A stretch of 64,000 nt of DNA from Microbacterium sp. SLBN-154. GTDB taxonomy: Bacteria > Actinomycetota > Actinomycetes > Actinomycetales > Microbacteriaceae. The notes under the pieces were generated by a model that was not told the origin of the DNA, did no database searches, and saw only the letters and a program-made list of their open reading frames with translations. Position 1 is the first letter of the stretch. Each line of letters opens with the position of its first letter. Below are positions 8,524 through 40,449 of the stretch, piece after piece. The stretch is from NCBI RefSeq assembly GCF_006715565.1, contig NZ_VFNL01000001.1:930001-994000 (forward strand), in the 5' to 3' direction. A program made the position numbers and the translations under genes.

Positions 8524-9717
8524 GTGGCTAAGGCCAAGTTCGAGCGGACCAAGCCGCACGTGAACATCGGAACGATCGGTCACGTCGACCACGGCAAGAC
8601 CACGCTCACCGCCGCGATCTCGAAGGTGCTCGCCGACAAGTACCCGTCGGCCACCAACGTGCAGCGCGACTTCGCGTCGATCGACTCGGCTCCCGAGGAG
8701 CGTCAGCGCGGCATCACGATCAACATCTCGCACGTCGAGTACGAGACCCCCAAGCGTCACTACGCTCACGTGGACGCCCCGGGTCACGCCGACTACATCA
8801 AGAACATGATCACCGGTGCCGCTCAGATGGACGGTGCGATCCTCGTGGTCGCCGCCACCGACGGCCCGATGGCTCAGACCCGTGAGCACGTTCTGCTCGC
8901 CAAGCAGGTCGGCGTGCCCTACCTGATGGTCGCGCTGAACAAGGCCGACATGGTCGACGACGAGGAGATCCTGGAGCTCGTCGAGCTCGAGGTCCGCGAG
9001 CTGCTGTCCAGCCAGGGCTTCCCCGGCGACGACGCTCCGGTCGTCCGCGTCTCGGGCCTGAAGGCTCTCGAGGGTGACGACAAGTGGGTCGAGTCGATCG
9101 TCGAGCTGATGGACGCCGCCGACGAGTCCATCCCCGACCCGGTGCGTGACAAGGACAAGCCGTTCCTCATGCCCATCGAGGACGTCTTCACCATCACCGG
9201 TCGTGGCACCGTCGTCACGGGCCGCGCCGAGCGTGGCACCCTCGCCATCAACTCCGAGGTCGAGATCGTCGGCATCCGCCCGACGCAGAAGACCACGGTC
9301 ACGGGTATCGAGATGTTCCACAAGCAGCTCGACGAGGCGTGGGCCGGCGAGAACTGTGGTCTGCTCCTTCGTGGTCTCAAGCGCGACGACGTCGAGCGCG
9401 GCCAGGTCGTCGTGAAGCCCGGTTCGGTCACCCCGCACACCAACTTCGAGGGCACGGCGTACATCCTGTCCAAGGAGGAGGGCGGCCGTCACAACCCGTT
9501 CTTCACGAACTACCGTCCGCAGTTCTACTTCCGCACCACCGACGTCACCGGCGTCATCTCGCTGCCCGAGGGCACCGAGATGGTCATGCCCGGCGACACC
9601 ACCGACATGACGGTCGAGCTGATCCAGCCGATCGCCATGGAGGAGGGCCTCGGCTTCGCGATCCGTGAGGGTGGCCGCACCGTCGGCGCCGGCACGGTGA
9701 CCAAGATCCTCAAGTGA
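8524..9717 (+). CDS. tuf: Elongation factor Tu
   Basis: The 397-residue GTPase delivers aminoacyl-tRNA to the ribosomal A site. G1 GHVDHGKTT, the G2 RGITIN loop, G3 DAPGHADY and G4 NKAD are intact, and domains 2 and 3 are complete to the [11 protein letters not shown] terminus. The GTG start is set by a GAGGAGG Shine-Dalgarno ending about 6 nt upstream. It closes the str operon and is followed by a strong hairpin terminator. Only this one tuf copy lies in the window. Confidence 0.98.
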
Positions 9718-32091: not shown

Positions 32092-33774
32092 ATGTTGACG
32101 GGGGGCAGGTCGCGGACGGTCGATGCCTCACCGGCGCCGATCTCGACCTGGTCTGTCGCTCCCGACACCCGGATGTTGGCGCCCGCACCGATCTCCACCC
32201 GCACCCGGTCGATCTGGTTGAGTCAGCTCGTGCTGGGGGTCACGGTCCTCGCCGTCGTCATCCTGTTGCTGTTCATCCAGCCCTCGCAGCTGGCGAACGC
32301 GACCTTCACCGGGGGCGTCCTGCTGCTGGTGGTGATCACGGCGGCGACCCTGATCGCACCGTGGGCGCGGCTGACATCGGCCGCGGTGCTGATCGTGCCG
32401 TTCGCCGACCTGTTCGCGGTGGGGCTGCTGAATCTCGACGGCGACCTGCGGTTCGCGTTCCTGTGGACCTTCCCCATCGTGTGGATCGCTCTGCACTACG
32501 GCGCCCGCACCCTGGCCGTGGCTCTTGGCGCGGTCGGGCTCTTCCTGCTGATCGTGGCGAGCCTCAACCCCGGCACCGAATCCACGATCCGCGTGGTGCT
32601 GATCATCATCGTGCTGAGCTTCATCGGCATCACCCTGCACGTGGGATCAAGGCGCACCCGGGCATTCAAGCGCCTCCTGCGCCAGCAGGCGCGCCGCCTG
32701 CGCGCGACCCTCGATCGGGCCACCGCGCAGGAGCGGCGGATCGCCGAGATGATCGACGGCATCGACCTCGGCATCGTGCGGCTGTCTCCCGGCGGTGAGC
32801 TGCTCGCCCTCAACGCCGCCTATCGACGGCTCTACGGTCTGGGGGAGCAGGAGGACCCCGCCCACACCGCCGTGATCGAGCATGCCGGAGTCGACGGGCC
32901 GGAGGTGCCCGCCGACGAGCGTCCGTTCGCGCGCGCCGCCCGCGGCGAGGCGTTCGCCCCCGAGACGTACTGGATCATCGACGCCGAAGGCACGTGGCGC
33001 GCGGTGACCGTGTCGGCGAGCCCGCTCGCCTCGCGAAGCGAGGACGAAGCCAGCATGCTGCTCGTCGTGCGCGAGGTCACAGCCCTGCTGCACGCCGAAC
33101 GCGCGCGCGATCAGGTCGTCGCGATGGCCTCGCACGAGATCCGCAACCCGCTCACCGTCATCCTCGGCCGCGCCGAGCTCGCCCTCGAGCGCGACGTCGA
33201 CGCTGCGAGCCGTGACGACTTCACCGTGATCGAGGCGTCGGCCGAGCGGATGCTGACGATGCTCGAACAGACCCTCCGCGATTCCCGGTCGTCGTTCACC
33301 GCCCCTCGCGGCACCGACGAGATCGATCTGCGCAGCGTGCTGGAGGCGTCGCTGGTGGGAGTGACGGCCAACGCGCGAGCGCGCAACATCACCCTGCACA
33401 CCGAGCTCCCCCCGGTGCTCCCCGCGCGGGGGGATGCGTTCCGCCTGCGCCAGGTGTTCGACAATCTCCTCACCAACGCCGTGAAGTACACACCCCGGCA
33501 GGGCACGGTCTCGGTGAGGGCGGCGGTCGACCGCGACATGATCCACGTCGACGTCAGCGACTCGGGGATCGGGATCCCCGCCGACGAGATCGACCGGGTG
33601 TTCGAGCCCTACTTCCGCTCCTCCGCTGCCGGCCAGACGGCGTCGGGGACGGGCCTCGGCCTCGGGATCGCGCGCGACATCGTCGAGGCGCACGGCGGCA
33701 CCCTGACGCTGACGTCGCACGTCGACGAGGGCACCACGGCGAGCGTCGCCCTCCCGCGGGCGGCGACGCCGTGA
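32092..33774 (+). CDS. PAS-domain sensor histidine kinase
   Basis: The 560-residue protein has about five membrane helices within residues 42-185, an Arg-rich coiled segment, a PAS domain around 220-330 (IDGIDLGIVRLSPGGELLALN), a HisKA dimerisation domain with phospho-acceptor His348 in ASHEIRNPLT, and a HATPase with N box (FDNLLTNAVKYT), DSGIGIP and GTGLGLGIARDIVEAHGG. It should autophosphorylate in response to a membrane or cytoplasmic cue. The GTGA overlap with the next gene links it to the degenerate GGDEF protein. The nearest candidate partner is the response regulator at 38.3 kb; that pairing is inferred from proximity. Confidence 0.92.
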   Translation: MLTGGRSRTVDASPAPISTWSVAPDTRMLAPAPISTRTRSIWLSQLVLGVTVLAVVILLLFIQPSQLANATFTGGVLLLVVITAATLIAPWARLTSAAVLIVPFADLFAVGLLNLDGDLRFAFLWTFPIVWIALHYGARTLAVALGAVGLFLLIVASLNPGTESTIRVVLIIIVLSFIGITLHVGSRRTRAFKRLLRQQARRLRATLDRATAQERRIAEMIDGIDLGIVRLSPGGELLALNAAYRRLYGLGEQEDPAHTAVIEHAGVDGPEVPADERPFARAARGEAFAPETYWIIDAEGTWRAVTVSASPLASRSEDEASMLLVVREVTALLHAERARDQVVAMASHEIRNPLTVILGRAELALERDVDAASRDDFTVIEASAERMLTMLEQTLRDSRSSFTAPRGTDEIDLRSVLEASLVGVTANARARNITLHTELPPVLPARGDAFRLRQVFDNLLTNAVKYTPRQGTVSVRAAVDRDMIHVDVSDSGIGIPADEIDRVFEPYFRSSAAGQTASGTGLGLGIARDIVEAHGGTLTLTSHVDEGTTASVALPRAATP

Positions 33775-34907
33775 TCGACGGCATCCCCTCCTTCAGCGGA
33801 CCCAACCTCGCCCTGGCCCAGGCGACGGTGGCCACCCTCGGCGTCGTCATCATGATCGGGGTGGCGTTCCTGGATCGTCCGCATCGCTCGACGCTGCTGT
33901 GGTCGATCGCGTTCCTTCTGGCGATGACCTCGTCGTGGGGGGTCGTGCTGGCCGAGACCGTCGACTCCGAAGTGATCCGTCGGGTGTCGCTGGGCATCCT
34001 CATGGGTGCGCCGGGCTTCTTCTGGGCGGGCTTCCGCACCCTCCGCGGCACCGCATCGCGGTGGTGGGTCGCGGCGTCGCTGTCGGTTCTCAGCCCGGTG
34101 ATCCTCGTCGCCGCCGGCGCCACCGAGGTCTACAGCGTCGTGTTCCGCCTGATCTTCTTCCTCTCGGCGGTGTTCGCCTTCCTGCTCCTCGTGGAGTGGC
34201 TCCGACTTCCCGACCGCGGCGACACCGTGCTGTACCCGCTCGTGGTGATCTCGGTGCTCTACTCCGCCCTCGCCGCCTTCGTCGCCGTCGCGGGCTTGGT
34301 CTTCCCCGCCTCCACCGGCGACGATCTGCAGTTCGTGCGCTCGGTCAACCAGCTCGGCTTCATCGTCTACATGGTCTGCGCACTGGTGTCGCTGGTCGGG
34401 TTCGCCACCCGTCGCGAACGGGTGGTGGCGCCGGGATCGCGCACCCCGTGGGAGGAGTTCATCGCAGGATGCCGCGACCGACTCGTCCGTGCAGGGAGAC
34501 GCGGGGAGCGTTCGTGGGCCCTCCTGGTGTTCCGTCTGGACGACGAGGACGACGTTCGCGACGCCGTCGGGGCCGCTGGTTTCGACACCGTCTGCGCCCG
34601 CTTCGCCGAGGCGATCTGCGCCGCCCTTCCCGCCGACGCCGACATCGCCGAGCGCAGGCCCGGCACGGTGGTCGTGCTGATCTCCCGACCCGAGCCGGTG
34701 CTGCGCGCCGCGCTCCGCGGCGCGCTCGGAAGGGTCGGTCGGATGGAGAATGCCGGCGGTATGGAGATCCAGGTCTCGGCGAGTGTCGGATGGGTCTCCG
34801 CCGACGGCGACGAGGACGACCTCGACACCCTGCTCGATCGCGCCGAGGCGGCCGCCGACACCGCCCGCGCCTCCGGCGGCGACCGGTGGGAGCGGATCAG
34901 CCGCTGA
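33771..34907 (+). CDS. Membrane protein with degenerate GGDEF domain
   Basis: The 378-residue protein has about seven membrane helices in residues 10-215 and a cytoplasmic C-terminal domain (about 240-378) shaped like a GGDEF domain: ALLVFRLDDEDDVRDAVGAAG matches the first strand and helix, and ASVGWVSADGDEDDLDTLLD followed by AADTARASGGDRW matches the usual end. The active-site motif is lost: RRPGTVVVLI stands where RxGGDEFxVLL should be, so cyclic di-GMP synthesis is not expected. It may sense a ligand or bind partners. The GTG start overlaps the histidine kinase stop by 4 bp, so both are co-translated, which suggests they signal together. Confidence 0.8.
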   Translation: MIDGIPSFSGPNLALAQATVATLGVVIMIGVAFLDRPHRSTLLWSIAFLLAMTSSWGVVLAETVDSEVIRRVSLGILMGAPGFFWAGFRTLRGTASRWWVAASLSVLSPVILVAAGATEVYSVVFRLIFFLSAVFAFLLLVEWLRLPDRGDTVLYPLVVISVLYSALAAFVAVAGLVFPASTGDDLQFVRSVNQLGFIVYMVCALVSLVGFATRRERVVAPGSRTPWEEFIAGCRDRLVRAGRRGERSWALLVFRLDDEDDVRDAVGAAGFDTVCARFAEAICAALPADADIAERRPGTVVVLISRPEPVLRAALRGALGRVGRMENAGGMEIQVSASVGWVSADGDEDDLDTLLDRAEAAADTARASGGDRWERISR

Positions 34908-34922: not shown

Positions 34923-35567
34923 TCACTCCTCGGGATCCGACTCGGACCCGGGTGCCGCCGCGATCGCCACGGTGACGGTGTCGCTCGCGGTCTGCTTGGC
35001 GAACTCGTTCGAGGTCGGGGTGGTCTGCACGAGGAAGTCGTAGCTGAACTGCAGCTGCACGTGCGTCGCGTCGGTCGGCACCGATCCCACGTTGAAGGTC
35101 TGCGAGTAGCTGTACGGTGCGAGGACGAGGTATCCGGGGGCGACCGAGGACTGGTCGACCTGCGCCTCCAACGGCGCCATCGCGCCATCCGGTCCCTGGG
35201 GCACCGCGACCATCACCGCTCGCTGCAGGTAGACCTTCTGGCCGTCGTCGGGAGTGACCGTCGTCGTCATCGACAGGCTCACGGGCTTCAGCGCCTCGGC
35301 CGTCCACCGATCCATCGACAGGTTCGACCAGTAGTCCACCGACGCCGCGACCGCACCGGCGACGAGCTCACGCTCGGTCGAGCCGCTGGAGAGGTCGTTG
35401 GGAACCGGCGTCGGCGCCGCGGACGGCGTCGAGCTGGTCGTGGTGCTCGGGGTGGGCTCGGCGCCGAAGTCCCACGGAGCCGGACCGCAGCCCGTCAGGG
35501 CCAGGGCGAGCGTCAGGGCGAGCGCGGAACTCGCAGCGCCCGCGGCGGCACGACGATGGGGACCCAT
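34923..35567 (-). CDS. Lipoprotein, possible paralogue of the divergent lipoprotein at 35.8 kb
   Basis: The 214-residue product starts with a lipoprotein signal ending in the lipobox LALTGC at about residue 25, followed by a Thr/Ser/Pro-rich spacer and a domain of beta-strand character. The ATG at 35567 is supported by GGGAGGTTCC just upstream; a longer frame to 35648 has no such site. The C-terminal stretch (VQLQFSYDFLVQTTPTSNEF to VTVAI) aligns by eye with ITLEFALTVWVEGNANDENS to LPVAI of the neighbouring plus-strand lipoprotein, and the central KVYLQRAVMVAV with RVYLSSVSVTS, so the two are probably diverged copies. Function is unknown; a surface-polymer role is inferred from the neighbours. 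Confidence 0.75.
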   Translation of the reverse strand: MGPHRRAAAGAASSALALTLALALTGCGPAPWDFGAEPTPSTTTSSTPSAAPTPVPNDLSSGSTERELVAGAVAASVDYWSNLSMDRWTAEALKPVSLSMTTTVTPDDGQKVYLQRAVMVAVPQGPDGAMAPLEAQVDQSSVAPGYLVLAPYSYSQTFNVGSVPTDATHVQLQFSYDFLVQTTPTSNEFAKQTASDTVTVAIAAAPGSESDPEE

Positions 35568-35625
35568 GGAACCTCCCGGGGCGGGTGGGACGAAGCGCCT
35601 TCCGGCCGGGGAAGACAGTGGCGTC

Positions 35626-35631
35626 AGTCTA
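35626..35631 (-). promoter_or_regulatory. -10 element of the minus-strand lipoprotein gene
   Basis: Read on the minus strand this is TAGACT. The last CTTG of the repeat array (35649-35646) lies 14 bp upstream of it, at the -35 position, as in promoters whose -35 is replaced by a PhoB-type activator site. Confidence 0.45.
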
Positions 35632-35645
35632 CGGACCTCCCAGCG

Positions 35646-35680
35646 CAAGGCTGGCGCAAGATCACCTCAAGAACCTCAAG
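35646..35680. promoter_or_regulatory. Candidate response-regulator box: CAAG repeats at 11-bp spacing
   Basis: CAAG occurs at 35646, 35657, 35668 and 35677, so the first three are exactly 11 bp apart; the last two units share the longer core CCTCAAGA. OmpR/PhoB-family regulators bind direct repeats spaced by one helical turn (about 11 bp). The matching CTTG array lies upstream of the glycosyltransferase gene. The regulator encoded at 38302 is the obvious candidate ligand. Confidence 0.55.
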
Positions 35681-35828
35681 ATCGCCGATCGGCGTGATTG
35701 TGTAACCGGCGAGGGGTGGGACCGGTCGCTCTCGCAGGCCGCCCGAACCCGAACCGGGCGGTGTGCCCACAGTTCGCGGGGCCGACCGGCCCCCACCCCG
35801 TTCCAACCGGCACGTCAGGAGTCCCGCC

Positions 35829-36575
35829 GTGAGCATCTCAGCCCCCCGCACCCGCCGTCCCGGCCGGCTCCTGGCCGTCACGGCCGCCGGCGCTCTCGTC
35901 GTGGCGCTGTCGGGGTGCGCGCAGGTCGTCGATGCGTTCAACCAGTTCCAGCAGTCCACGGGCGCACCGGTGGCGGCGGCGACTCCGACGCCGCTCGCGT
36001 CGCCGTCGATGGACTTCGACTCGCAGTTCACCTACGACGGTTCGGTGTCGCTGTCCACCGAGGTCGCCGATCAGCTCGAGGTGCGCCTGGACGTGTGGGC
36101 GTCAGACCCCAAGCGCACCCTCGAGTGGACCCCGACCCGCGCGAAGACGCTGGGCTTCGCGGTGAACGTCCACGATCACCGCGTCGATGAGAAGGCCGTT
36201 CTCACCGAGAAGCGCCGCGTCTACCTCTCGTCGGTCTCGGTGACCTCGCAGACCGCGCAGACGAGTGGTCAGGTGCAGAGCCCCTTCCAGTTCAGCGCCG
36301 ACCCGCGGACCCTCGTGCCGACCGACACACTCCGCTCCGATCGCGGGCTGCTGCTCAACAGCTTCCAGGGCGGCCTGCTCGTGCCCGAGACGACGATCAG
36401 CCAGCTCCCGGGCGACACCTACGGCATCACGCTCGAGTTCGCCCTCACGGTGTGGGTCGAGGGCAACGCCAACGACGAGAACTCCTTCTCGCAGCAGACG
36501 GTCTACCAGTACCTGCCGGTCGCCATCTATCCCGACGGCTCCGCCGCGGTGGCGGGTCCCCCCACCCAGCCTTGA
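35829..36575 (+). CDS. Lipoprotein of unknown function
   Basis: The 248-residue product has a twin-basic N-terminus, a hydrophobic core and the lipobox VALSGC at about residue 28, followed by an Ala/Thr/Pro-rich spacer and a beta-rich domain. The GTG at 35829 is supported by AGGAG 8 nt upstream; a longer frame from 35763 is not. It appears to be distantly related to the divergently transcribed lipoprotein (see that entry). It is followed by the glycosyltransferase gene, with CTTG repeats at the junction. A role at the outer face of the membrane in polymer export or in sensing is inferred only from context. Confidence 0.75.
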   Translation: MSISAPRTRRPGRLLAVTAAGALVVALSGCAQVVDAFNQFQQSTGAPVAAATPTPLASPSMDFDSQFTYDGSVSLSTEVADQLEVRLDVWASDPKRTLEWTPTRAKTLGFAVNVHDHRVDEKAVLTEKRRVYLSSVSVTSQTAQTSGQVQSPFQFSADPRTLVPTDTLRSDRGLLLNSFQGGLLVPETTISQLPGDTYGITLEFALTVWVEGNANDENSFSQQTVYQYLPVAIYPDGSAAVAGPPTQP

Positions 36576-36603
36576 GGCAACCTTGCGGGGCGCTTGGTGA
36601 GAC
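36571..36603. promoter_or_regulatory. Candidate response-regulator box: CTTG repeats at 11-bp spacing
   Basis: CTTG begins at 36571, 36582 and 36593, three units at exactly 11-bp spacing (cttgaggcaac, cttgcggggcg, cttggtgagac), starting at the stop codon of the lipoprotein gene and pointing towards the glycosyltransferase. The reverse complement contains CGCAAGGTTGCCTCAAG, close to CGCAAGGCTGGCGCAAG in the array at 35646-35660. Confidence 0.55.
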
Positions 36604-36699
36604 CTCGGGCTCGCGTCGCGGTTGGGCGGGCACTGTGGTCGAAGCGGCAGGAAGCCACCCGGCAGAAGCAGGCCGCTCCGAACGACACAGGATGTCACG

Positions 36700-38178
36700 A
36701 TGACCGAGCAGAACTCCCCCGTCGCCTTCCCCCGCACCGCACCCATGTCGGCCGTGCCGCGGCCCCCGGCCGACGTTCCGATGGAGACCGGGTTCGCCGA
36801 TGACTTCGCCTCGGTGCTGGAGAACCTCACCGGTCACCGCTCGACGATCGGCTGCGTCATCCCCGCGTACAACGAGGAGGAGTCGATCGCCGGGGTGATC
36901 GAGTCGCTGCTCGCCCAGACCCGGGTGCCCGACGTGATCCACGTGGTGGTCAACAACTCCTCCGATGCGACCGTGAAGGTGGCCTCGGAGTTCGCCGGTC
37001 CCCACCAGATCACCAACGACCTCGGGGAGCAGTTCACCGAGGTCTTCGTCCACGACATCGGCAAGAACCCCGACAAGAAGGTCGGCGCGCTCAACTACGG
37101 CTACTCGCTGGTGGAGGGATACGACTACCTGCTCGGCGTGGACGGCGACACGATGGCCGATTCCAAGGCCGTGGAGTTCCTCGAGACCGAGGCGGTCTCG
37201 GACTCGCGCATCGGCGGCATCTCGGCGATCTACTCCATCGACGACCGCCCCATCAAGGGCGTGGTCGGTAAATTCCTCATCGCCGGTCAGCGCACGCAGT
37301 TCGCCGCATTCAACCTGCAGAACCTGCTGCGCGGGCGCAACATGGCGGTGCTGGGGGGCCAGTTCTCCATCTTCTCGACCAATGCCCTCCGCGACGTGAT
37401 GCGTCAGAACCACCAGTCCACCCCGTGGGTGCGCGACAGTGAGGTGGAGGACTCGCTGCTGTCGCTGCAGATCAAGAGCGCCGGGTACCTCACCAAGATC
37501 AGCCCGTATGCCCGAGCGGATGTCGGCGGCATGACCACGCTGAAGGGCTACGACGCCCAGCAGGTCAAGTGGACCTACGGCGCCATCGAGCTGATGTGGC
37601 CCGGACAGCGCGGAGACACCAAGGGGCAGCCGCTGCACCCGAACCTGCGGCTGCGGTGGTTCGAGAACTTCGGCATGCTCACGAACCTCTTCGTGCGCGT
37701 GGCCTTCCTGATCCTCCTGGCCGGTTCGCTCTCGATCGGCGCGTTCATCTTCTCGCCGTGGTGGCTCATCCCGCCGGTGGTGGCGACCCTGCTGAACCTG
37801 CGTGTGGCTCGCACGATGAAGAGCCACAACTCGCGCGACATGCTCTTCGCGGGCCTGATCTTCCCCGCGGAGATCTTCATGTGGATCCGCCTCAGCCACT
37901 TCCTGCGGTCGTGGACGCGCTTCCTCTCGCGCAAGAAGGTCGACAACTGGGCGATGCAGGCCAAGGCCGAGAAGGGAGGCGGCAGCGCGCACTGGCTGCC
38001 CCTGGTGCTGCTGATCGCCGTGCTCGTGGCGATGGCGGTGATCTGGACGATGCTCGGTCCGATGGTGCAGTCCACGATCCTGTGGATCGGCTGGCCGATC
38101 GTGGGCGTCGTGACGGTGCTCCAGACCCTGCTGATGTTCTTCAAGCTCATCCGCCGTCACCAGGGCTACAAGGTCTGA
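36700..38178 (+). CDS. Processive-type family 2 glycosyltransferase (membrane polysaccharide synthase)
   Basis: The 492-residue protein has a GT-A domain with the motifs of processive beta-glycosyltransferases such as cellulose, hyaluronan and poly-N-acetylglucosamine synthases: IPAYNEEES, the DGD triad at about 148-150, an ED pair near 250 (DSEVEDSLLSL) and a QQVKW version of QxxRW ending at about 291. Then come about four or five membrane helices, in pairs around 330-370 and 435-485, forming the likely export channel. It should use a cytosolic UDP-sugar and extrude the chain. The ATG at 36700 follows AGGA. The polymer is unknown; the nearby GH6 gene hints at a beta-1,4-glucan. There is no PilZ domain. 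Confidence 0.85.
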   Translation: MTEQNSPVAFPRTAPMSAVPRPPADVPMETGFADDFASVLENLTGHRSTIGCVIPAYNEEESIAGVIESLLAQTRVPDVIHVVVNNSSDATVKVASEFAGPHQITNDLGEQFTEVFVHDIGKNPDKKVGALNYGYSLVEGYDYLLGVDGDTMADSKAVEFLETEAVSDSRIGGISAIYSIDDRPIKGVVGKFLIAGQRTQFAAFNLQNLLRGRNMAVLGGQFSIFSTNALRDVMRQNHQSTPWVRDSEVEDSLLSLQIKSAGYLTKISPYARADVGGMTTLKGYDAQQVKWTYGAIELMWPGQRGDTKGQPLHPNLRLRWFENFGMLTNLFVRVAFLILLAGSLSIGAFIFSPWWLIPPVVATLLNLRVARTMKSHNSRDMLFAGLIFPAEIFMWIRLSHFLRSWTRFLSRKKVDNWAMQAKAEKGGGSAHWLPLVLLIAVLVAMAVIWTMLGPMVQSTILWIGWPIVGVVTVLQTLLMFFKLIRRHQGYKV

Positions 38179-38301: not shown

Positions 38302-39390
38302 ATGAGCGACCCCTCGATGGCCCTGCGAACGGCCGTCATCGTCGAAGACGACCCCGACATCCGCCACCTCCTCGTCGAGGTGCTGGAGGCGGCGGGATTC
38401 TCGACGGTGTCGGTCGGCAACGGCATCGACGGCGTGCGCGCGGTCGTGTCGTACCAGCCGCTCATCACCACGCTCGATGTCAACATGCCCGGCATCGACG
38501 GGTTCGAGGCGGCTCGGCGCATCCGCGCGCAGTCGGACACGTACATCATCATGCTCACGGGCCTCGAGGACGAGGCCGACGTGGTGCTGGGACTCGGTGC
38601 CGGCGCCGACGAGTACATCGTCAAGCCGTTCCGCCCCCGCGAGCTCCGCGCCCGCATCGACGCGCTGCTGCGCCGTCCCCGTACCCAGCATGCCGCTCCC
38701 GCGCCGCGCCAGGACAGCGTTGGTCCGTCCTTCCCCGGCGCCCGCCCGATCGCGCAGCGCCCGTACGATCCTCACGCTCCGGCGCCGTACCCGTATCCCT
38801 ACGAGGGCATGCCGGGGATGCCGCAGATGCCGACCGGTCCTGCGATGCCCTACCCCGGCTACGCCGGCGAGCAGGGCGGCCAGCCGGCTCAGGCACCGCC
38901 GCCCACGGGCCCCGGGTCACCGCTGGAGCCGATCATCATGGCCGCGGGGTCCGCGGCATCCGCTCCGGCCACCCCCGGCCCCGTCGCCGATCCGAACGCC
39001 GGCACAGACCTCGTGCCGGCGGATCAGGGACCGCGCGAGCTCGCCGGTCTCAACGTCATGGCGCACCGGGATCTGCAGCTGGACCCCGACACCCGGATCG
39101 TCATGGTCGCCGGTGACACCCTGGATCTCACCCGCACCGAGTTCGACCTGCTGGCGACCCTCATGGAGTCCAAGCGCCGCGTCCGCAGCAAGGCCGATCT
39201 GACGCTGGTCCTCCGGGGAGAGTCCTACGTCACCTCGTACTTCGTCGGCGAAGCCGACAAACGGGCGATCGAGGCGCACATGACCAACCTGCGCCGCAAG
39301 CTCGGCGACAACCCCACCAACCCCCGGTACATCGAGACGGTGCGCGGCGTGGGCTACCGACTGACCTCGGAACTGGTCGCCGGAGCCTGA
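38302..39390 (+). CDS. OmpR/PhoB-family response regulator with long proline-rich linker
   Basis: The 362-residue protein has a receiver domain in the first 125 residues (acidic EDD pocket, phospho-acceptor Asp59 in TLDVNMPG, Thr in MLTG, Lys in VKPF) and a winged-helix DNA-binding domain in the last 105 (LTRTEFDLLATLMESKRRVR, RRKLGDNPTNPRYIETVRGV). The linker of about 120 residues is Pro/Ala/Gly/Tyr-rich, whereas OmpR-type linkers are normally 5-20 residues. GGGAG precedes the ATG at 38302, but an upstream ATG at 38224 is equally well served, so the start could lie 26 residues earlier. It probably controls the CTTG/CAAG arrays nearby and is a likely partner of the histidine kinase at 32.1 kb. 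Confidence 0.9.
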   Translation: MSDPSMALRTAVIVEDDPDIRHLLVEVLEAAGFSTVSVGNGIDGVRAVVSYQPLITTLDVNMPGIDGFEAARRIRAQSDTYIIMLTGLEDEADVVLGLGAGADEYIVKPFRPRELRARIDALLRRPRTQHAAPAPRQDSVGPSFPGARPIAQRPYDPHAPAPYPYPYEGMPGMPQMPTGPAMPYPGYAGEQGGQPAQAPPPTGPGSPLEPIIMAAGSAASAPATPGPVADPNAGTDLVPADQGPRELAGLNVMAHRDLQLDPDTRIVMVAGDTLDLTRTEFDLLATLMESKRRVRSKADLTLVLRGESYVTSYFVGEADKRAIEAHMTNLRRKLGDNPTNPRYIETVRGVGYRLTSELVAGA

Positions 39391-39423: not shown

Positions 39424-40449
39424 TCACTCCACGTCGCGGGTCAGCTCGACCGCGGCCTTCGGCCACCACACCCCCGCGGCGGGGCCGCCGTTGCATTCGC
39501 CGTCGGACTCGCCGGGAGGCTTGATCCAGAGGTTGGTGTCCACCACGTCGTCGGCGAGAGTGCCGCCGGGCTCGCCGATGAGGCGGCCGCGGGGGTTGCA
39601 CCATTCACCGTTGGACCCGGCTCCGCTGCGCGACGTGTCGACGACGGCCTTCGCGCCGCCGAGGAGACCCGACAGCTGACGGGCGTAGACGAACTCCTCG
39701 GTGGAGTGGTTGTAATTGGAGACGTTGGTGGCGAAGCCCCGGATGCTGCCGGTGCGATCGAGCTGCGAAATCAGGCCCGCCATCTCCTCGGGCGGGAGCC
39801 AGGTGGAATGGCCGCCGTCGACGTAGATCCAGGTGTTCGGGCCCGCGAGGCGATCGATGGCCCCCCGCAACTGCTCGGTCCGCTCGGCGACGTTTCCGCA
39901 TTCGGGGGCGAGGGCCAGGCTGTCGGGCTCGAGGACGACGATCTTCTGCAGGTCGCCCGCCGCGCGCAGGCCCGCGGCGATCTCCTCTGTCCAGGTGACG
40001 TAGTCGGGTTCGTCCAAGCCCCCGGCGGAGAAGTTGCCGCAGTCCCGTCCGGGGAGGCCGTAGACGACGACGGCGATCGCGGCGTCCTGGGCGCGCGCCT
40101 CTTCGGCGAGGTGCGTCATGCGCGCGAACACGTCGCCGATCGGGTCTTCCTCGGGGGTGAGCCAGTACGCGGTGGGCTGAGCGGCGAGGTACTCCGTGGC
40201 GGCGTACTCCTCGGTGCCGGGCGTTTCGGCGGCAAGGGCCTTGGCCGCCTTCGACTCGTCGGGCACGACGATCGTCGTGCCGAGGGCGGGAGGGCGGGCG
40301 CTGAGCATCTGGAACCCCCAGGTGGCGACCCAGCCGATCGCCGCGAGGATGGCCAGCAGCCCCGAGGCGGCCAGCACGACGAACGCGATGATGAGCCACC
40401 GCGGCAACCCGCGGCGGCGACGACGCACGGGTGCGGGGGCTACGGCCAC
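39424..40449 (-). CDS. Membrane-anchored GH6 glucanase
   Basis: The 341-residue protein has one N-terminal signal anchor (residues about 17-45) and a complete glycoside hydrolase family 6 domain. Motifs in order: VVYGLPGRDC, VVLEPDSLAL with the catalytic Asp, IYVDGGHSTWL, GFATNVSNYN, VVDTSRSGAG, WCNPRGRLIG and IKPPGESDGEC. GH6 enzymes are inverting beta-1,4-glucanases or cellobiohydrolases; anchored versions trim nascent glucan in cellulose-like polymer systems of actinobacteria. It is the last gene of the minus-strand DUF4012-LPxSG-GT4 operon, 10 bp behind GT4, and a TAGCAT element 7 nt upstream of its GTG could also drive a leaderless transcript. Confidence 0.9.
   Translation of the reverse strand: MAVAPAPVRRRRRGLPRWLIIAFVVLAASGLLAILAAIGWVATWGFQMLSARPPALGTTIVVPDESKAAKALAAETPGTEEYAATEYLAAQPTAYWLTPEEDPIGDVFARMTHLAEEARAQDAAIAVVVYGLPGRDCGNFSAGGLDEPDYVTWTEEIAAGLRAAGDLQKIVVLEPDSLALAPECGNVAERTEQLRGAIDRLAGPNTWIYVDGGHSTWLPPEEMAGLISQLDRTGSIRGFATNVSNYNHSTEEFVYARQLSGLLGGAKAVVDTSRSGAGSNGEWCNPRGRLIGEPGGTLADDVVDTNLWIKPPGESDGECNGGPAAGVWWPKAAVELTRDVE

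Follow-up and report, generated by a model that had tools for sequence, protein, structure and literature searches.

In PhoB-dependent promoters the repeat word is CTGTCAT, and the last half-site of a pho box lies about 10 bp before the -10 element. The two arrays described here, from a probable Microbacterium surface-polysaccharide locus, do not carry this word; their half-site is CTTG(A/C)GG. They are also longer than a pho box, often with a distal block 33 bp away. However, the arrangement is like that of the pho box, which is described as a 22-bp element made of two 11-bp direct repeats (PMC3978041), in that the arrays consist of head-to-tail 11-bp repeats and an OmpR/PhoB-type response regulator is predicted to be their binder.

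The regulator encoded in the locus is an orthologue of neither PhoB nor MtrA by the NCBIfam equivalog cut-offs. It scored 141 of the 296 bits needed for the PhoB model. MtrA of the Actinobacteria was the best-scoring NCBIfam model and PDB relative, but the score of 161 bits was below the cut-off of 300 and, unlike MtrA, the regulator has a linker of about 150 residues between its receiver and winged-helix domains. The MtrA motif likewise differs from the CTTG(A/C)GG half-site.

With regard to the structural genes, a GT2-type synthase adjoins a family 6 glycoside hydrolase in the cslA-glxA-cslZ glucan cluster of Streptomyces (PMC9040799), and the present locus pairs the same two kinds of enzyme. 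Two lipoproteins, a two-component system and a GGDEF-like protein set the present locus apart from the Streptomyces cluster. A literature search at the level of titles found none on the regulator-operator pair, the half-site or the promoter layout. The kind of operator, OmpR/PhoB, is known, and the pair, the half-site and the layout are apparently new.

The arrays and the genes around them

The source genome is a single contig of 3,572,005 bases, and the window, the whole stretch of 64,000 nucleotides that was analysed, corresponds to positions 930001-994000. The gene order is endonuclease/phosphatase-family protein, histidine kinase, GGDEF-like protein, lipoprotein A (minus strand), lipoprotein B, GT2 glycosyltransferase, response regulator and family 6 glycoside hydrolase (minus strand). 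The coordinates of the features are collected in Table 1.

Table 1. Genes, arrays and predicted promoter elements of the locus (positions in the window).
Feature	Position	Strand	Remarks
Sensor histidine kinase	32092..33774	+	Pfam HisKA, HATPase_c; match in 69/80 related loci
GGDEF-like protein	33771..34907	+	Pfam GGDEF 24.7 vs cut-off 23.8 bits; match in 56/80 related loci
Lipoprotein A	34923..35567	-	ATG start chosen by hand; match in 75/80 related loci
-10-like hexamer TAGACT of putative lipoprotein A promoter	35626..35631	-	11 nt after last 7-bp half-site
Array 1, whole	35646..35680	-	read directly; kept in relatives L026, L027
Array 1, four CTTG half-sites	35680-35677, 35671-35668, 35660-35657, 35649-35646	-	spacing 9, 11, 11
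Lipoprotein B	35829..36575	+	match in 46/80 related loci
Array 2, predicted distal operator CTTGAGGCAACCTTGCGGGGCGCTTG	36571..36596	+	first two repeats conserved
Predicted promoter-proximal half-site GTCGCGG, degenerate	36615..36621	+	33 bp after second CTTG; relatives often YTTGCGG there
Predicted GT2 -10-like hexamer CACTGT, degenerate	36631..36636	+	9 nt after proximal half-site; relatives often CAGAGT, +49
GT2 family membrane glycosyltransferase	36700..38178	+	Pfam Glyco_tranf_2_3 and others
Response regulator	38302..39390	+	Pfam Response_reg + Trans_reg_C; match in 80/80 related loci
Family 6 glycoside hydrolase	39424..40449	-	Pfam Glyco_hydro_6; match in 73/80 related loci

The regulator belongs by its domains to the OmpR/PhoB class, its receiver and C-terminal winged-helix domains both scoring above the Pfam cut-off. 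Its linker, about residues 120-271, is unusually long and rich in proline and glycine. The histidine kinase is, by synteny, the probable partner of the regulator. The GGDEF-like protein, in which the GGDEF signature seems by eye to be absent or degenerate, is probably not an active cyclase. Neither lipoprotein matched a Pfam or NCBIfam model at E<=0.001. Lipoprotein B was predicted with moderate confidence to have a beta-rich fold (model score 73.9), and a fold search with this model gave no match at E<=0.001. The GT2 enzyme showed weak similarity to the PgaC model, 53.5 bits against a cut-off of 422; its structure model was poor (mean pLDDT 59.7) and was left out of the analysis. A hydrophobic stretch was seen by eye at the N-terminus of the family 6 hydrolase.

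The original prediction listed CAAG starts at 35646, 35657, 35668 and 35677 and CTTG starts at 36571, 36582 and 36593, and all seven were read directly at these positions, the spacings in the first array being 11, 11 and 9. The first CTTG of array 2 shares bases with TGA (36573-36575), which ends the lipoprotein gene upstream. The identity between a 17-mer of one array and a 17-mer of the other, given earlier as 13 of 17, was 14 of 17 on recounting. The fourth CTTG of array 1 stands at a 9-bp rather than an 11-bp step (35668-35680); the same 9-bp pair, CTCAAGAACCTCAAG, also precedes lipoprotein B in loci L069 and L074-L077 of the M. oleivorans group.

The genome was scanned for three CTTG at 11-bp spacing, as had been proposed. 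CTTG-N7-CTTG-N7-CTTG had exactly two matches in the 3,572,005 bases, which were these two arrays, and the reversed pattern had none. The two-unit pattern CTTGNGNNNNNCTTGNG gave three matches genome-wide, all within the two arrays (reversed control, 12), and a 28-base three-unit pattern with up to two mismatches gave four, three of them in these arrays (reversed control, 8), the reversed control being imperfect in that GTTC pairs are commoner than CTTG pairs. In these two scans the genome had no further strict site beyond the locus. When the window alone was scanned with two mismatches, four sites were found, a number reached by 12 of 100 shuffles and hence not unusual. The strength of the arrays therefore lies in the exact genome-wide result and in their conservation.

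Conservation of the repeats and promoter layout

An alignment of five GT2 sequences was used as query, and the best 80 of 354 confirmed relatives were taken as 80 named loci. Of their labels, 62 were Microbacterium and the rest were Agromyces, Plantibacter, Cryobacterium, Agreia, Sanguibacter, Microbacteriaceae or actinobacterial bins and one Stenotrophomonas contig. The last of these (L078, labelled Stenotrophomonas maltophilia) carries a Microbacterium-type locus and is probably a contamination of that assembly.

Over 1.31 Mb of related loci, 85 CTTG pairs were found at spacing 11, with 0 at spacing 10, 1 at 13 and 1 at 14. Counts were also high at spacings divisible by 3, for example 101 at 12, which was put down to coding. 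Seven control tetramers, among them one reverse-complementary pair, were counted in the related loci, and none had a peak at spacing 11.

Conservation of the arrays upstream of orthologues had been suggested as a check on the original prediction. It was borne out in 52 of 81 loci (the 80 relatives and the window), where CTTG-N7-CTTG was present at most 330 bp before GT2. The consensus of 42 non-redundant upstream regions was (A/G)(C/T)CTTG(A/C)G(G/C)AAA(C/T)CTTG(C)GG. The repeat unit is thus an 11-bp direct repeat, CTTG(A/C)GG-N4, arranged head to tail around a 7-bp half-site, and the arrays have the direct repeats with a 10-11 bp period that characterize an OmpR/PhoB-type operator. A strict pair was absent upstream of GT2 in the other 29 loci. 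Of these, 27 (all but L054 and L056) were inspected by eye. Several contain degenerate arrays, and in others lipoprotein B is followed at a short distance by GT2; a script confirmed the phase chains of L060 and L091. L026 and L027, the two nearest relatives, have kept both arrays apart from the third CTTG in array 2, where one has GTTG and the other CTTC.

For the promoter layout, two regions that were too short and near duplicates were removed from the 52, leaving 33 upstream regions in which distances were taken from the second CTTG. A proximal half-site, TTG(A/C)G(G/C), was found at +33 in 12 regions, at +11 in 6 and at +44 in 6, and a -10-like word, YAGWST, at +49 in 15 and at +50 in 2. 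The maxima in 300 shuffles were 3 for the half-site and 2 for the -10-like word. Wherever the strict words for both elements co-occurred in these relatives, 9 nt separated the half-site from the -10-like hexamer (11 of 11). These sequence comparisons suggest that the promoter-proximal contact of GT2 is likely a half-site of its own, at a distance of 33 bp from the second CTTG of array 2.

On the side of lipoprotein A, TAGACT had been reported 14 nt after the last CTTG of array 1 on the minus strand, and this was confirmed (35631-35626). The relatives have TAGACT (L026) and TAGAAT (L027) at this hexamer. A sigma-70 promoter scan of 35500-36750 found none, and a search for TTGACA at spacings 15-19 before TAGACT and CACTGT gave at most 2 of 6 matching bases at either. 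The lack of a sigma-70-type -35 at both putative promoters is in line with replacement of the -35 by the array. From the spacing and the likeness to the pho box, the last half-site may take the place of the -35. In Agreia and Cryobacterium (L102-L105, L099, L100), CAGAGT, or CACAGT in L103, lies 7 nt before the likely GT2 start codon, which suggests leaderless mRNAs.

The recognition helix of the regulator was compared over 105 loci. The residues R, H and the last K were present in 105 of 105 and N and E in 103 of 105, the residues presumed to contact DNA being placed by analogy with PhoB. The two exceptions, L089 (Microbacterium sp. BR1) and L090 (M. lacus), have QAHVDSLRR instead of EAHMTNLRR. 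No CTTG array was found upstream of GT2 in either locus. The upstream regions contain CCTGCGG, (A/C)CTGAG(C/G) and CCTGAG(T/C) at 0, 22 and 33, in 11-bp phase, and the last CCTG-type half-site is followed after 9 nt by CACAAT or CATAAT. Among 366 genus genomes, the variant regulator had only two close matches, with E values of 4.2e-192 and 3.5e-230 (next, 4.9e-106; the helices of the further matches in this listing were left uninspected). Since only two related species match it closely, the change of helix and operator was counted as one event. It provides a natural test of DNA reading by OmpR/PhoB-type regulators. CTTG and CCTG half-sites are mixed, with the ordinary helix, in some other loci, for example in Plantibacter.

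Association of array and regulator across genomes

The local regulator had been put forward as the reader of the arrays. Comparison of 159 Microbacterium genomes, with thresholds of E<=1e-60 for the regulator and E<=1e-100 for GT2, gave the regulator in 74, GT2 in 67 and the array in 65. The array was present in 58 of the 74 genomes with the regulator as against 7 of the 85 without it, which supports the proposal. The Fisher p value for this association, 1.7e-20, is uncorrected for kinship and is thus not a true probability. The strict array was absent from 16 of the 74 genomes with the regulator. One of the seven array-bearing genomes without the regulator (G234) has a sub-threshold homologue of it, 56% identical, beside GT2.

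The regulator accompanies GT2 in 66 of the 67 genomes that have GT2, so that the separation of the two rests on few cases. In eight genomes the regulator was found without a strong GT2 match, and in five of these an array is found no more than about 1.5 kb from the regulator match. Three of the five (L190, L191, L193) retain a diverged or truncated GT2, and none was matched in L189 and L192. In genus g35, where the stretches compared gave no GT2 match, the array is flanked by the kinase gene and by an Hpt-like gene adjoining the regulator.

An order-wide GT2 sample of 297 genomes contained 25 with GT2. Of its 27 places in these, 6 belong to the genus and 1 to the family, and 20 lie outside the family. 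Repeat chains were found at 5 of the 7 places in genus and family, with none at L266 and L270 despite the presence of the regulator. Outside the family they were found at 2 of 20 places. At L271 the regulator is close by, whereas the chain at L279 is weak and has no regulator match; L272 has a single half-site followed after 9 nt by AAGACT. Five of the outside places (L271, L272, L275, L285, L287) have a regulator-like match in the stretch examined, and no chain was seen at 4 of them; the same holds for 14 of the 15 places without such a match. As a control of the regulator link this sample did not DISCRIMINATE; beyond the family it neither supports nor refutes the link.

Arrays outside the locus numbered 30 sites in 26 of the 74 genomes with the regulator and 6 sites in 6 of the 85 without it. 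Three or four CTTG were present at 13 of the 30 sites in the former and at 0 of the 5 examined among the 6 in the latter. A half-site followed after 9 nt by a -10 was found at 3 of the 30 sites, and each other gap from 3 to 17 was found at one site at most. A family-wide count of arrays (199 genomes, 46 with a match) showed by eye, with columns untotalled, no enrichment over the reversed pattern; out-of-locus sites were therefore judged by comparing genomes with and without the regulator.

The neighbours of these sites include a cellulose-synthase-like protein (L205, 74.6 bits vs a cut-off of 699, with apparent homologues, judged by eye, at L204 and L200), SipW-type alternate-signal-peptide proteins in two genera with scores above cut-off (L223 and, from the family-wide count, L182) and an adhesin-like protein with an SdrD-type domain (L209). 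Further neighbours are GT2 enzymes (L211, L219), a GT4 enzyme (L214) and an esterase (L216; also L213 and L215 by eye). Because 7 of the 30 sites lie within predicted ORFs (L198, L199, L203, L208, L212, L219, L221, the L219 ORF being doubtful) and several have no matrix-type neighbour, the regulon list is suggestive only.

Proposed mechanism and alternatives

The comparative evidence points to both arrays being operators of the OmpR/PhoB-type response regulator of the locus, with a probability of about 0.85. The phosphorylated regulator would bind in tandem to the 11-bp repeats, all copies on the same face of the helix, and the one closest to the promoter would replace the -35 element and recruit RNA polymerase, as PhoB does at the pho box. 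The targets in the window would be lipoprotein A and GT2, and perhaps also lipoprotein B. On this sequence evidence the regulator is probably an activator of surface-polysaccharide and lipoprotein genes. Sites of this kind are also found next to other surface-matrix genes in relatives, so that the probable role of the system is to turn on a programme for surface polysaccharide or matrix.

The possibility was considered that the arrays are due to chance or are a by-product of composition or coding. The two-mismatch scan of the window alone was not unusual and array 2 begins within the end of a coding sequence, both of which would fit. However, the only two exact matches in the genome lie less than 1 kb apart, and relatives have preserved the spacing, the phase and the distance to the -10 in front of GT2. 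Both arrays are real, and an origin by chance is scarcely conceivable. The arrays might also belong to a different, unlinked regulator whose targets happen to include these genes. They are assigned to the local regulator by comparison, other OmpR-family regulators are likely to be present in the genome (a second, weaker match was seen, and a first look gave 59 candidates), and, of the five GT2 places outside the family that have a regulator-like match, four lack a repeat chain. Against such an unlinked regulator, array presence tracks the local one across the genus, arrays stand beside it in five of the eight genomes missing a strong GT2 match, out-of-locus arrays are commoner in the genomes that carry it, and the half-site differs where its recognition helix differs. 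Control by an unlinked regulator is consequently judged to be decidedly improbable.

A different question is the direction of control. The arrays could be operators of the local regulator that mainly repress or act bidirectionally, with array 1 serving lipoprotein B in reverse orientation. CAAG-oriented arrays are present upstream of lipoprotein B in several loci, in some of which lipoprotein A is not divergent, and the arrays before cellulose-synthase-like genes are also reverse-oriented. However, an activator would be expected to have just such a strict spacing between proximal half-site and -10 as is seen in relatives, and a mainly repressing or bidirectional role is regarded as unlikely.

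With activation by the local regulator as the preferred reading, the two-component system gains a predicted operator, a promoter architecture and a testable list of targets, in a group where 74 of the 159 Microbacterium genomes sampled carry the regulator. A broader proposal, with the chances evenly balanced, is that, in Microbacteriaceae and their neighbours, it constitutes an undescribed master switch of the surface matrix. Together with the GT2 glycan locus, such a switch would in some species co-activate cellulose-synthase-like genes, SipW-type fibre-like genes and adhesin genes, and in one lineage regulator and operator would have changed together (QAHVDSLRR, CCTG) as a natural specificity switch. 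If confirmed, this would indicate how a large actinobacterial group turns on its surface matrix.

Hpt-like genes similar to that of genus g35 lie 3' of GT2 in Agreia, Cryobacterium, Plantibacter, Sanguibacter and others, and none was seen in Agromyces L092. The protein encoded at L102:9416-9775 scored 21.5 bits with Pfam Hpt vs a cut-off of 24.6, and similar ORFs after GT2 were recognized by eye in L094, L095, L098, L099, L171 and L188, as well as in L169 at about 8740-9621. The phospho-accepting histidine appears by eye to be replaced in these proteins (LLSIRSSSRMIGA), which may represent a pseudo-Hpt that tunes the two-component system. In the window, the gap of 123 bp between GT2 and the regulator leaves no room for such a gene. 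Finally, in genus g58 (L175:8761, L176:9314) an array was found 3' of an AfsA-domain gene that adjoins homologues of the kinase and the regulator.
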